DNA from: Geobacter sp. FeAm09
Lineage (GTDB): Bacteria > Desulfobacterota > Desulfuromonadia > Geobacterales > Pseudopelobacteraceae
Reading direction: 5' to 3'
DNA: 64,000 nt
Assembly (NCBI RefSeq): GCF_008330225.1
Contig: NZ_CP042466.1
Location: 816,501-880,500 of the forward strand
The translations under genes and the position numbers were made by a program. The first letter of the stretch is position 1. Each line of letters begins with the position of its first letter. Shown piece by piece: positions 33,742 through 45,806 of the stretch. The notes under the pieces are model-generated. The model was not told the origin of the DNA. It saw nothing but the letters and a program-made list of their open reading frames with translations, and ran no database searches.

Positions 33742-34460
33742 ATGAAATTCCAGCCTATCAAACCCAAGAAGGTCTCGGCCCAGATCGCCGAGCAGATCCG
33801 CGCCTCGATCCTGGCGGGGGAATTCTCCCCCGGCGACAAGCTCCCCCCGAGCGCGAACTGGCCGAGATGTTCGGCGTATCCCGCCCGTCGGTGCGCGAGG
33901 CGCTCAATATTCTGGCTGCGGCCGGCCTGGTCATGTCCTATCAGGGAGGGGGGACGGTCGTGCTGTCCCTGGTGGAGATGCCGGGGGGAAATCCGCTCTC
34001 GGATCTGATCCGGTCGGAGCAGGAGCGGGCGCTGGACGTGATCGAGGTGCGCAAGGGGATGGAATCCTGGACCGCCTACTATGCGGCCCAGCGGGCGCTG
34101 CCCGAGGATATCCGGCGCATGGAGGAGATCATCGGCGGCATGGAGCGCAACCTGGACGGCCTGAAGCCCTCCGAGGACCTGGATGCCAACCTGCACATCG
34201 TGATCGCCCGCGCCACTCACAACATCGTCTGGCTCCACCTCATGCAGAGCCTGTTCGACGCCATGAAGGAGTTCCAGCAGACCGTCTGGCGTGCGGTCTA
34301 CCTGACCAGCGACGACCATCACCTGCTCTTCGGCCACCACCGCCGCATCTTCGAGGCCATCAAGGCCAGGGACGCGGAAACCGCCCGGGAGGCGATGATC
34401 GCCCACCTCACCTTTGCCGAGCAGCGCAGCAGCGCCTACGTCACGCGGCAGCAGGTATAG
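33742..34460 (+). CDS. GntR/FadR family regulator, frameshifted in this sequence
   Basis: A GntR regulator whose N-terminal winged helix starts MKFQPIKPKKVSAQIAEQIR at 33742. A run of six C (33843-33848) breaks the frame. One added base gives LPPERELAEMFGVSRPSVRE, the standard recognition helix, and about 239 residues in total. The C-terminal FCD ligand domain has metal-site residues in the DANLHIVIARATHN and GHHRRIFEAI segments. Its position after the lactate genes and the LldR-like operators near 28.4-28.5 kb make it the likely lactate-responsive regulator. It overlaps the convergent gene by 20 bases. Confidence 0.87.
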
Positions 34461-36657
34461 CCCCCCCGTCCCCGTTTTCTTTTCCCGCGCCCTGTTCTCC
34501 GGCAACCGGTTCGTCCATCCTGCAGATGCCGATCTTCTCCAGCGCCCTGATCTGGCGGTGGGAATTGCGCGACAGCTCGAACCGGTCCATCATGAACCCC
34601 ACGCTTTCGAAGTAAAAGATGGCGTCCTGGAGGGCGCGGGCGTAGTTTGCCGCACCTTCCGGCTGCTCTTCCGGCAGGCAGATCAGCACCTCGCCGCTGT
34701 CGATCAGGTGCCAGGCGAGGTTGATGGTCGTCTTCCCTTCCCGCTCCACCACGCAGACATAGGCGCCGCAGAGCTGGGAGCGCCTCCCCTCCGGGGCGGC
34801 CTGGACCACGTTGGCCGAACCGTAGAGTTCGACGATGTCGTCGGCCACATGGTAGGAAATGACCGTCACGTCCGGGGCATAGCGAAAGGTGGCCCCACCC
34901 CCTCCGACTGACGGGCCGCCGAAGCCGCCGAACCCGGAAAAACCGGGGCCGGCATCCACCAGTCCCAGGGCCGCAAATGGCGATTCCACGTGACGCTCCA
35001 TGGCTATGGGCGCCTGGGACGCGGGGAGGGGGTACACGGACGGAGCCGGTGGCGGGGGAGGGGATACGGCAAGAGAAGGGGGGGCGTGCTCCAGTTCCTT
35101 CAGCTTTTCTTCCAGGGCCTGTTTCTCCCGCTTGAGGCGTTCCACCGCCTTGTGGGCCTTTTTCTTGAAATTGCCGGCAAGGGTGTCCCACACTTTCTTC
35201 TCGCCGGTCAACTGTTCCAGCTTGGCCGCAAGGGAGTTCAACTCGGCCTGGGTGCCCTTCAGTTCGAGCTCTTTGTCGGCCAGAAGCGTTTCGGAGCGCT
35301 GCCGTTCCTCCCGTTGGCCCTCTTCCAGGCGTTTGACGCTGGCATGCAACCCTGTCCGTTCCTGCTCCAGGGCCTCCCGCTCCTGCCGCCATGCAATCCC
35401 CGCGCTCTCCTTGATGACCGCCAGTTCGGCCTTGAGCGCCTCGCGCTCGTTGATCAGTACCTGCTGTTCCTTCATGACGTTCTTCAGGGTGCCCTGCATG
35501 ACCCCGTTTTCGGTGCGGGCGGCCGCCAGTTCGTCCCGCAGGGCCTGCTCCCGCTCCGTTGCCGCAAGTTCCTCCGCGGCCCGGCCCGCAATCTCCCTGG
35601 AGAGCTGCTGTTCGGCGCTCGAGCGTTCGGCCGCCACGTCCTGATGGAGCCGGTCCAATTCCCGGCGCAGCTCGGCCGACTCCGTTTCGGCCTGTTCCAG
35701 GCGCCGGTCCAGTTCCTCCGCCCGGGCCTCCGCCTCCCGGCGTTGGGCGCTCTCCCGGGCAAGAATCCCCTCGAGGGCGCGCAGCGCCTCGGCCTTGCCC
35801 TGCAGCTCGTCACGAAGCCCGGCAACAGCGTCGTTCTCCGGCGACGCCCCCGTGTTCTTTTCGGCCAATTCCTCCCGAAGTGCCTCCTCCTGTTCCCGGT
35901 GCGAGGCGGTGGTCCGTTCCAACTCCAGCTTGATGGCCGTTATGGCCTGTTCGGCCATGCGTTCGGCTTCGGCCTTGGCCGCCTCCATGCCCGCCAACGC
36001 CTCCTTCAGGCCGGCAACCTCTGCGGCAAGGGCGGCAGCCTCAGGTGATGGGACCTTCCCGGTTTCAGCCTCGGCCGGTTCCTTATCCGCCAGGGCTTTC
36101 CTGAGATCGGCAATCTCGGCGGTCAGCGCGGCAACCGCCGGGGACGGGACATTGGGCACGGATGGTATGGCTGGGGTATGGTCGTGGGGGGCAGGGGCCG
36201 GGATCAGCTGGACGGCCGGTTGGGGCGCCATGGACGGTGCGGCGCCCCTGGCTTGCTGTCTGCCGGGGCGGGGCGGGGCGGGGGGACGCATGACGCTGAT
36301 GCCGCGTATGATGACCTGGCGCATGGCGGCACTGTAGTCGAGCTTTACCTGCTCCATGTCGAAGCCCATGGATTTGGTGAACTTCAGGGCCTCGTTGACG
36401 AGACGTTTCTGGTCGGCGGGCTTGCGGGTATCGCTGGCGGCGGAAAAGACGACGGGGCGCTGGGTGACGGTATCGAAGAAGGCCACGTAGGCGGTGAAAG
36501 CATCCTCCTCCCGCGCGGTGCAGACATAGGCTTCGCACAGATGCCCCTGGCACTGCTCCTCGGAAGGGACGACGTTGTTGGAGGAACGATAGATCTCGGC
36601 GACATGGGGCTCTTTGACCTCGATGTGGCTCAAGGATTGATTCAGGGAAAACCCCAT
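34441..36657 (-). CDS. Coiled-coil protein with the same domain at both ends, function unknown
   Basis: Encodes 738 residues. Residues about 20-125 and about 610-720 are clearly related: EIYRSSNNVV pairs with ELYGSANVV, LCEAYVCTA with LCGAYVCVV, and KSMGFDMEQVKLDYS with ESVGFMMDRFELSRN. The C-terminal copies both end in an I-x-x-C/M-R segment. Between them lies a Pro-rich linker, about 380 residues of charged coiled coil and a Gly-rich stretch. No signal peptide or membrane helix is seen, so it is probably cytoplasmic. I recognise no known family. It is preceded by a consensus promoter and a cGAMP-type riboswitch, which suggests control by a cyclic dinucleotide. Confidence 0.75.
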   Translation of the reverse strand: MGFSLNQSLSHIEVKEPHVAEIYRSSNNVVPSEEQCQGHLCEAYVCTAREEDAFTAYVAFFDTVTQRPVVFSAASDTRKPADQKRLVNEALKFTKSMGFDMEQVKLDYSAAMRQVIIRGISVMRPPAPPRPGRQQARGAAPSMAPQPAVQLIPAPAPHDHTPAIPSVPNVPSPAVAALTAEIADLRKALADKEPAEAETGKVPSPEAAALAAEVAGLKEALAGMEAAKAEAERMAEQAITAIKLELERTTASHREQEEALREELAEKNTGASPENDAVAGLRDELQGKAEALRALEGILARESAQRREAEARAEELDRRLEQAETESAELRRELDRLHQDVAAERSSAEQQLSREIAGRAAEELAATEREQALRDELAAARTENGVMQGTLKNVMKEQQVLINEREALKAELAVIKESAGIAWRQEREALEQERTGLHASVKRLEEGQREERQRSETLLADKELELKGTQAELNSLAAKLEQLTGEKKVWDTLAGNFKKKAHKAVERLKREKQALEEKLKELEHAPPSLAVSPPPPPAPSVYPLPASQAPIAMERHVESPFAALGLVDAGPGFSGFGGFGGPSVGGGGATFRYAPDVTVISYHVADDIVELYGSANVVQAAPEGRRSQLCGAYVCVVEREGKTTINLAWHLIDSGEVLICLPEEQPEGAANYARALQDAIFYFESVGFMMDRFELSRNSHRQIRALEKIGICRMDEPVAGEQGAGKENGDGGAIPAAA

Positions 36658-36740
36658 GCAGCACCCCCATTAGTGCCGTTTCCCCTGGGGAGAGAACGGC
36701 CGGAACCGACTTTGACCCCCCTTGACCACCACACTATATA

Positions 36741-36772
36741 CGGGTGCCCAGGATCTGATCTTTCGGCACCCG
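36741..36772 (-). other. Hairpin competing with the 3' end of the riboswitch
   Basis: cgggtgcc (36741-36748) pairs perfectly with ggcacccg (36765-36772). The second arm is the 3' strand of the riboswitch's last stem, so the two structures exclude each other, as expected of an expression platform. No T tract follows. Confidence 0.5.
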
Positions 36773-36836
36773 GCTGTCTCCGTGAGACCCGTAGGCTATC
36801 CGTCCCGTCATCGCTGGCGGTTTAGTAGTATCGCTT
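36757..36836 (-). ncRNA. GEMM-Ib riboswitch, predicted 3',3'-cGAMP sensing
   Basis: Read on the minus strand, the segment has the order TACTAAACC, a short hairpin with a GCGA loop, GGGACGGATAGCC, then ACGGGTCTC...GAGACAGCCGGG and TGCCGAAA. This closely follows the GEMM-Ib class described for Geobacter (TACTAAACC, GGCGGAAAGCC, GGGTCTC...GAGACAGCCGGG, TGCCGAAA). The A in the ACTAAACC element is the feature linked to cGAMP rather than c-di-GMP preference. It lies in the leader of the coiled-coil gene, about 100 bases before its ATG and about 30 bases after the predicted transcription start. Confidence 0.85.
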
Positions 36837-36875
36837 ATCAGATGGTCAGTAAATTGCTAATATATGTAGGAATTA

Positions 36876-36903
36876 ATTCTAAGCGCGGCCGCCTGTTTGT
36901 CAA
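36876..36903 (-). promoter_or_regulatory. Sigma-70 promoter of the riboswitch-controlled coiled-coil gene
   Basis: On the minus strand TTGACA (36898-36903) is followed after 16 bases by TAGAAT (36876-36881). The start would be near 36869, giving a leader of about 210 bases that contains the whole riboswitch. Confidence 0.7.
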
Positions 36904-39739: not shown

Positions 39740-39817
39740 GGCATATCCCTCGTGATAATAGAAAAGCCGCGCTGTTGTGATACAGGCGGCCGGGTTCATG
39801 GATTGGATGAACAGTCG

Positions 39818-39912
39818 TGCAAGCCGCTTTCCTACGCCGGGATTAACCGGATCAGGTTCAAAGGGTCTGATTCCAAAAGGAATCATCTCAGCTCTTTCGA
39901 ACTCCCCCAGGG
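39818..39912 (-). ncRNA. TPP riboswitch (THI element)
   Basis: On the minus strand the conserved order is GGGGGAGTTCG, CTGAGATGATTCC, a short stem, AGACCCTTTGAACCTGATCC, GGTTAATCCCGGCGTAGGAA. These are the CTGAGA and ACC(C)TTTGAACCTGATC hallmarks of TPP sensors. It lies about 80 bases before the ThiE-ThiD start and should reduce expression when TPP is high. Confidence 0.97.
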
Positions 39913-39928
39913 CCTTGTGATTGTGTCT

Positions 39929-45735: not shown

Positions 45736-45806
45736 GTCCCCTAACCATCCGGGAGGGGCAGGCGGCTTTGCGTCCCCAGGTCACCTTGGCTTTGCCCGTT
45801 CGATGG
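45736..45806 (-). ncRNA. Candidate GEMM-like (c-di-GMP-I type) riboswitch
   Basis: On the minus strand ACGGGCAAAGCC, a short stem with a TGA loop, and GGGACGCAAAGCC (45764-45776) match the 5' half of the GEMM-I consensus. The GGGCAAA element resembles c-di-GMP-type rather than cGAMP-type members. The 3' half (CCCCT...AGGGG) departs from the usual AGnnAGCCGGG, so this may be a variant or degenerate copy. A terminator and then the protease ATG follow. Confidence 0.5.

Follow-up and report, generated by a model that had tools for sequence, protein, structure and literature searches.

A predicted cGAMP-type GEMM-Ib riboswitch of a diverged subtype in front of a gene of a coiled-coil protein family of the Geobacterales

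The minus-strand leader of the gene for a 738-residue protein, P0001, in the window (the whole 64,000-nucleotide stretch of DNA from Geobacter sp. FeAm09 that was analysed) probably contains a GEMM-Ib riboswitch which senses cGAMP and which represents a diverged aptamer subtype, designated S, with P0001 as a member of the cGAMP regulon of the order Geobacterales. We have good confidence in the combined reading of the aptamer, its specificity base, a hairpin that excludes the aptamer, a recurrent link between aptamer and gene family, and cGAMP binding that leads to read-through, the last of these being predicted from relatives that have been tested. The link between switch and gene, as judged from the genome sequences, recurs across the order. 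An earlier note on this DNA suggested that the product might be a new effector of the cGAMP pathway; that suggestion is reduced here to the gene as a likely target of the pathway, as predicted from its leader, and the product is not taken to be a binder of cGAMP.

The aptamer and its ligand-contact bases

The Rfam family RF01051 (c-di-GMP-I) matches the leader end to end at 36762-36836 on the minus strand (cmscan, Infernal), with 35.3 bits against a gathering score of 35 and a window-wide E of 0.0034, and TPP is the sole other Rfam family that reaches its threshold within the window. The RF01051 score is marginal because the window copy belongs to a diverged aptamer subtype. Much of what the earlier note had read from the letters is borne out: the sequence blocks that it named are all present on the minus strand in the order it gave, the covariance model agrees with the GEMM assignment by scoring above its gathering score, the specificity base is A, from which cGAMP recognition is predicted as in its GEMM-Ib call, the leader precedes the 738-residue coiled-coil gene, for which no Pfam or NCBIfam family exceeds its cut-off, and the consensus promoter lies just upstream. 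A second covariance model, R1, was built from the window leader and nine orthologous leaders (ten in total); the window leader scores 119 bits with R1, a value that is high by construction, since this leader is among those from which the model was built. The features of the leader, in the direction of transcription, are as follows.

36876..36903, minus strand: sigma-70-type promoter, TTGACA-16 nt-TAGAAT (read 36903-36876), matching 11 of 12 consensus positions; shuffled sequences hold a mean of 0.2 such sites
36753..36848, minus strand: GEMM-Ib-type aptamer, subtype S, with the P1 helix and a preceding TGACC (R1, 119 bits; RF01051 core at 36762-36836)
36837..36843, minus strand: 5' arm of P1, AUCUGAU, which pairs with AUCAGAU at 36753-36759 (sequence reading and covariation)
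36828, minus strand: C at the position equated with A12; C in seven of 42 leaders, namely all six of Oryzomonas and L113
36826, minus strand: A at the specificity position, nucleotide 20 of Vc2 or A14 of the cGAMP structure (RF01051 alignment)
36798, minus strand: U at the position equated with A42; U in 14, A in 27 and G in 1 of 42 leaders
36741..36772, minus strand: competing hairpin, the terminator stem, CGGGUGCC with GGCACCCG, which overlaps the 3' strand of the aptamer (sequence and folding)
36728..36740, minus strand: tail after the hairpin, UAUAUAGUGUGGU, which is without a U-tract (longest T run 2)

The base pairs of the aptamer were evaluated in an alignment of 47 R1 matches, which reduce to 42 distinct rows because five are duplicates or do not stand before a gene of the family. 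Changes on both sides are found in 13 of the 26 pairs (59 cells), a level reached by 0 of 500 shuffles and well above that of slid controls, in an alignment which is fitted to the structure and so favours covariation; within the P1 helix all seven pairs show such changes. This covariation is evidence against a chance match and is independent of the 119-bit score of R1. Among the ten closest leaders alone there is too little variation to tell. The GNRA-closed hairpin of the three-helix junction is present in the window with a GCGA loop. Shuffled sequences fold as well as 36725-36840 does (z 0.01), and folding energy was not kept in support of the aptamer. We also set aside a conserved long-range pairing of TGACC with GGTCA that would enclose the switch: the first ten leaders all have TGACC and GGTC without change, but TGACC is absent in L054 and in the other S leaders that were added later.

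The specificity base at 36826 corresponds to position 11 of the RF01051 model, where the consensus is G, and it is the base before the first P2 pair. Its equation with Vc2 nucleotide 20 and with A14 depends on a fit of the numbering of PMC6274999 which is our own. The bases of the cGAMP aptamer that contact the ligand are given in that source as G8, A9, A11, A12, A14, C15, G40, A41, A42 and C75. In this numbering, which again is our own fit, the window aptamer keeps eight of the ten, with C for A12 and U for A42; the remaining eight are invariant across the 42 family leaders, so that the specificity position is A in every one. The change A20G in a GEMM-Ib aptamer is reported to switch selectivity from cGAMP to c-di-GMP (PMC6456294), and the specificity position is elsewhere described as a factor in selectivity and not a hard filter (PMC9262584). 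Because A12C and A42U occur together with one base missing beside the pocket, the affinity or the selectivity of the window aptamer may be changed. A12C was not retained as a sign of altered specificity by itself, since the same C occurs in L113 and in six of 13 other GEMM-Ib loci that stand before other genes. These six ordinary aptamers (L073, L075, L076 and L078-L080) make C at A12 a recurring natural variant of the pocket.

The genome (4,099,068 bases in one contig) holds 18 RF01051 matches over the cut-off, nine of which, including the window copy, have A at the specificity position and nine G; given the nine G-type aptamers, c-di-GMP is probably sensed as well. GGDEF domains were matched 29 times with an E of at most 1e-10, and at the aligned Hypr signature position four of them have Ser (L159, L161, L165 and L175) and one has Thr (L171). 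Ser at this position is the criterion for Hypr enzymes, that is, cGAMP synthases (PMC6456294). In L175 (C1:2103784-2104077) a GGDEF-type domain combines this Ser with GGDDF, and an active enzyme with GGDDF has been reported (PMC8835794). The Ser-type GGDEF proteins and the other A-type GEMM copies thus provide a possible source of cGAMP and further likely cGAMP switches, with enzyme activity and ligand binding predicted in both cases. The frames that follow four of the other GEMM-Ib copies read as a FnIII-type protein, a CXXCH protein, a transpeptidase-like lipoprotein and an outer membrane protein, while the frames behind L010 and L015 gave no definite reading. Tandem GEMM-Ib pairs (L012/L014 and L017/L011) and a tandem G-type pair (L001/L004) also occur in this genome. 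A degenerate c-di-GMP-I-like aptamer lies in the window at 45737-45806 on the minus strand, before an open reading frame that reads as a secreted S8-type protease, and is followed by a terminator, GGCTCGCC...GGGCGGGCC TTTTTT; its DNA resembles that of intact copies in this genome, but its scores are below the Rfam cut-offs, with 22.4 against 59 bits for RF03167 and 24.8 against 35 bits for RF01051.

The gene family in the order and its link to the switch

Of the 141 genomes searched from the order, 62 matched profile A1, and two of these (G058 and G060) were dropped because their weak matches are to the coiled-coil part only, which leaves 60 genomes with 63 genes (the window, L039-L047 and L094-L146, where L054 and L110 are one record). 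In G124 and G125 the ends of the gene are on separate contigs, and the contig with the N-terminal end was taken. When R1 was run on 64 sources, a match on the same strand was found before 42 of the 63 genes. The distance from the match to the start is 42 to 283 nt in 40 loci; in L047 an ATG lies about 98 nt from the match, and in L137, which is without the N-terminal domain, the start is uncertain. In L136 (G117) a frameshift breaks the family gene into two overlapping frames, and the GEMM-Ib leader is intact.

No GEMM-Ib copy was found before the other 21 genes (L095, L096, L098, L100, L101, L104, L105, L109, L114, L115, L118, L119, L120, L124, L129, L130, L131, L132, L135, L145 and L146), which include all four family genes of genus g20 and all five of genus g22, and so work on those two genera could, we infer, have missed the link. 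Of these 21 loci, 17 (all except L130, L132, L135 and L146) were searched for Rfam families, and the single match, in L120, lies more than 3 kb from the gene; in L130 and L135 an R1 match lies downstream of the gene.

Family leaders account for all 17 top-scoring R1 matches in the order, ten of these leaders having been used to build R1, and 13 further loci among the R1 matches are ordinary GEMM-Ib copies before other genes. Genomes with any R1 match have from 1 to 26, with about ten in many, and the number of genes per genome is about 3,800 by our own estimate. By rough arithmetic, which is not a statistical test, chance would place a match before a fraction of one of the 63 genes, against the 42 observed. 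The genomic surroundings of the gene vary: when all neighbouring frames of at least 120 codons were clustered, a procedure by which some clusters may consist of antisense frames, the family itself was found in 63 of 63 loci and no other cluster of homologous frames in more than 16. In Oryzomonas the family gene follows a gene read as thiC, and a TPP switch lies upstream in the window and in four of the five other Oryzomonas loci, the fifth (L043) being a short contig. The TPP riboswitch of the window (39812-39918, minus strand, 71.3 bits) precedes genes read as thiamin biosynthesis genes, the last of which, read as thiC, adjoins the GEMM leader on its upstream side.

Two kinds of aptamer stand before the family. 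Subtype S comprises 17 leaders, including that of the window, which have CUGAUAARCG in common in the 5' part; 16 of them have one nucleotide fewer before U73, L046 retaining it, and the remaining 25 leaders are ordinary GEMM-Ib. The A42 position of the S leaders is U in 14, A in two and G in one, and the three exceptions refute U at this position as an absolute mark of the subtype. In a tree computed from both end domains of 58 of the 63 proteins (five incomplete ones were left out), clade A (local support 1.0) contains 21 proteins, 17 with an S leader and four without a switch, and clade B (0.92) contains 33, of which 23 have an ordinary leader and ten have no switch; the four proteins outside both clades are all without a switch. 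The subtypes segregate with the clades, and aptamer and gene have thus been passed on together by inheritance, and perhaps also by transfer. The genome G127 of family f4 has a clade A protein with an S leader (L102) and a second copy (L098) in clade B.

The expression platform and alternative readings

The competing hairpin which the earlier note proposed as the switch was located exactly, and here it is a terminator stem without a U-tract. The hairpin and the aptamer are mutually exclusive because the 5' arm of the hairpin belongs to the aptamer's 3' strand. For a transcript that ends at the end of the hairpin, the terminator form has a predicted energy of -29.3 against -22.1 for the enforced aptamer, and is better by about 7 kcal/mol, as expected of a ligand-dependent ON switch; an ON mode has been proposed for pgcA (PMC6456294). 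A terminator-like site was searched for in the window leader and none was found. Among the 42 leaders the T run after the hairpin is at least five long in 30 and reaches four in 36, and the poorest tails are those of the window, L039 and L040, where no run exceeds 2 and no stretch of 8 has more than 4 T. The U-tract is thus missing from the window copy and from two sister species, all three of which keep the terminator stem, while three other Oryzomonas leaders retain a partial U-tract. Because the U-tract after the stem is absent, the window copy is not classed as a proven terminator switch; tight termination has probably been lost, and the switch may be weak or leaky. What loss of termination can do is illustrated by pgcA, where an insertion predicted to weaken the terminator makes the gene insensitive to cGAMP (PMC6456294).

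In the mechanism that we propose, a Hypr GGDEF enzyme would make cGAMP, which would bind the aptamer and hold the strand AGCCGGGUGCC inside it; with this strand held, the terminator hairpin would be prevented and transcription would continue, as in an ON switch. Given the decayed U-tract in the window and the two sister species, termination without cGAMP would probably be incomplete and the gene partly constitutive. The product may then act as a soluble dumbbell-shaped scaffold that, on contact with a surface, builds or places the machinery of the type IV pilus or the envelope.

A somewhat unlikely alternative, though one to be taken seriously, is that the window copy is a decaying riboswitch, in which the aptamer still folds, the terminator is dead and the gene is constitutive. 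The lack of a terminator-like site, the T run of 2 in the three poorest of the 42 tails and the behaviour of the pgcA insertion all agree with it, but the six Oryzomonas leaders have almost the same aptamer, the stem is kept in the three that are without a U-tract, where a relic should lose it (in such close species little time may have passed), and a partial U-tract persists in the other three. That the aptamer binds mainly c-di-GMP, or both messengers, seems quite unlikely. A precedent exists in the omcST switch of G. sulfurreducens, which is reported to respond in this way (PMC6456294), the genome has nine G-type GEMM aptamers, and the specificity position is not a hard filter; the A at this position in every one of the 42 family leaders, that of the window included, together with the reported effect of A20G, nevertheless points to cGAMP.

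Folding of the leader also raised the question of a translational OFF switch, in which formation of the aptamer would free GCACCC to pair with GGGUGC at the ribosome-binding site. With the aptamer enforced, the mean unpaired probability of the Shine-Dalgarno sequence of the window does drop from 0.42 to 0.12, but in the sister species, where the same GGGGGTG site occurs and the U-tract is also missing, it changes from 0.61 to 0.59 (L039) and stays at 0.76 (L040). An effect predicted in the window and in neither of two sister species with the same site letters led us to reject this reading, which we regard as very improbable. Still less credible is a chance similarity to RF01051 in a leader conserved for some other role: the match exceeds its cut-off by only 0.3 bits, yet ordinary GEMM-Ib aptamers stand at the same place in same-family leaders from other families of the order, and the pairs covary, so that a chance match is improbable in the extreme. 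The reading retained is that of a cGAMP-sensing GEMM-Ib switch whose terminator in the window has probably become leaky.

The protein, its relatives and known systems

The open frame of P0001 is kept in its relatives, and the protein can be divided as follows.

34441..36657, minus strand: P0001, 738 residues, end domain - coiled coil - end domain
36277..36657, minus strand: N-terminal domain, residues 1-127, homologous to the C-terminal domain (model pLDDT 87.2)
35086..36135, minus strand: coiled coil by composition, residues about 175-524 (sub-threshold SMC-like matches only)
34501..34914, minus strand: C-terminal domain as modelled, residues about 582-719 (pLDDT 89.2, pTM 0.85)

The two ends are homologous to each other, with 26% identity over 88 residues and an E of 1e-9 in a single comparison. 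Between them, Ala, Glu and Leu account for half of residues 171-530, a charged region with no marked heptad peak. No family of Pfam or NCBIfam exceeds its cut-off with P0001, none of Pfam does so with the end domains alone, and PDB sequences gave nothing over the cut-off. Foldseek returned no match with E <=0.001 for the models of the end domains. Structural comparison gave a best Z of 4.4 for the C domain (rmsd 3.6, 91 aligned); for the N domain the best value, 6.7, is with the WGR domain of PARP1 (rmsd 3.5, 89-90 aligned). WGR domains, DcrB and Eag-type chaperones recur as weak rows among the candidates for fold kinship of the end domain, and nothing was concluded from them.

The end domain occurs in 23 of 395 sampled genomes of the phylum, 18 of them outside the order (profile A6, best E outside the order 2.1e-20). 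G422 was discarded as a single-domain relative: its frame can be read as a chemotaxis-type receptor, and the match is apparently fortuitous. The remaining 17 relatives have one end domain and a variable tail. In 14 of these 17 (among L181-L197) the protein ends in a short hydrophobic peptide, such as LGRLLAML, VGRMLAAF or IIRFLASI, which follows the variable, often acidic tail and is a possible docking motif. The single-domain gene directly precedes a gene for a TPR lipoprotein of Tgl/PilW-like type in all 14 loci that were read of the 17. When three of the TPR proteins were compared with NCBIfam, Tgl and PilW were the best or nearly the best matches, all under the cut-offs, with MamA slightly better than both for one of the three. 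Other neighbours in the 14 loci are a phosphorylase-like gene with an MTAP reading (8), PfkB (7), a RodZ-like gene (8) and pilM (2), and in both pilM loci a GGDEF gene lies between.

In the order of the window PfkB is found in 136 of 138 genomes. In the 31 of these loci that were read (L221-L250 and the window's own genome) it still lies beside the TPR gene, and the slot between them is empty in 30; the gap measures 54-237 nt in 29 of L221-L250 and 83 nt in the own genome. G130 (L129/L221) keeps a gene in this slot, a 767-residue frame with four tandem end domains. R1 run on 25 loci of both kinds gave one weak match, of 19 bits, far from the gene. The simplest account is that the gene was lost from an ancestral slot, that the two-headed form arose elsewhere, and that it came then or later under GEMM-Ib control. 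Since kin of the end domain are encoded beside a Tgl/PilW-like lipoprotein, the most likely role of the family, as a guess from gene context, is in the type IV pilus or the envelope. The family genes in the order of the window share no neighbour widely, so the connection with pili rests on the gene order in other orders and classes. From this context P0001 is tentatively predicted to be a soluble dumbbell-shaped scaffold with a role in pilus or envelope. A more speculative extension, which we consider rather unlikely as a whole, is that a pilus-linked single-domain gene moved away from its slot next to a secretin-pilotin-like gene, duplicated its domain on either side of a coiled coil and gained cGAMP control in the Geobacterales, that the product is a cytoplasmic scaffold which places or tunes pilus and envelope assembly, and that subtype S, with a remodelled pocket rim and a terminator that is eroding in Oryzomonas, may have shifted in ligand affinity or preference.

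Descriptions of cGAMP signalling in metal-respiring bacteria have dealt mainly with cytochromes, pilus genes and lipoproteins in a few strains of Geobacter, and GEMM-Ib control of hypothetical genes has already been reported (PMC6456294). Our literature search found no publication on the family or on an Oryzomonas riboswitch; the 2015 PNAS papers that defined the cGAMP riboswitches were outside its reach. New, as far as has been seen, are subtype S, its inheritance together with one protein family, and the kinship of the end domain to a pilus-linked family. Because the protein family follows the aptamer through changed genomic places in 42 genomes of three families, it is a strong candidate for a core pathway output. 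The occurrence of the end-domain family beside a gene for a pilus-type lipoprotein is a concrete lead on how cGAMP might act on pili, and the aptamer subtypes are natural variants with which ligand selectivity and the decay of a terminator switch can be probed.

The window switch resembles the GEMM-Ib switches of Geobacter (pgcA/GSU1761 and Gmet_0970) in having a GEMM-I aptamer with A at nucleotide 20, a stem that overlaps the 3' strand of the aptamer, an upstream promoter, and Hypr-type GGDEF genes in the same genome. It differs from ordinary GEMM-Ib switches in the U for A42, the nucleotide missing before U73, the conserved CUGAUAARCG segment and the lack of a U-tract, as compared with the eight other GEMM-Ib copies of its own genome and not with Geobacter sequences. 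RF01051 itself has a consensus G at the specificity position, where the window copy has A. In a scan ranked by E-value, RF03167 (c-di-GMP-I-GGC) is the best-scoring Rfam family for nine short GEMM copies of the genome, but all nine stay below its gathering score of 59, with 31.1 bits for the window copy. The single-domain relatives, finally, share the end domain with P0001 and differ from it in having one such domain with a variable tail.
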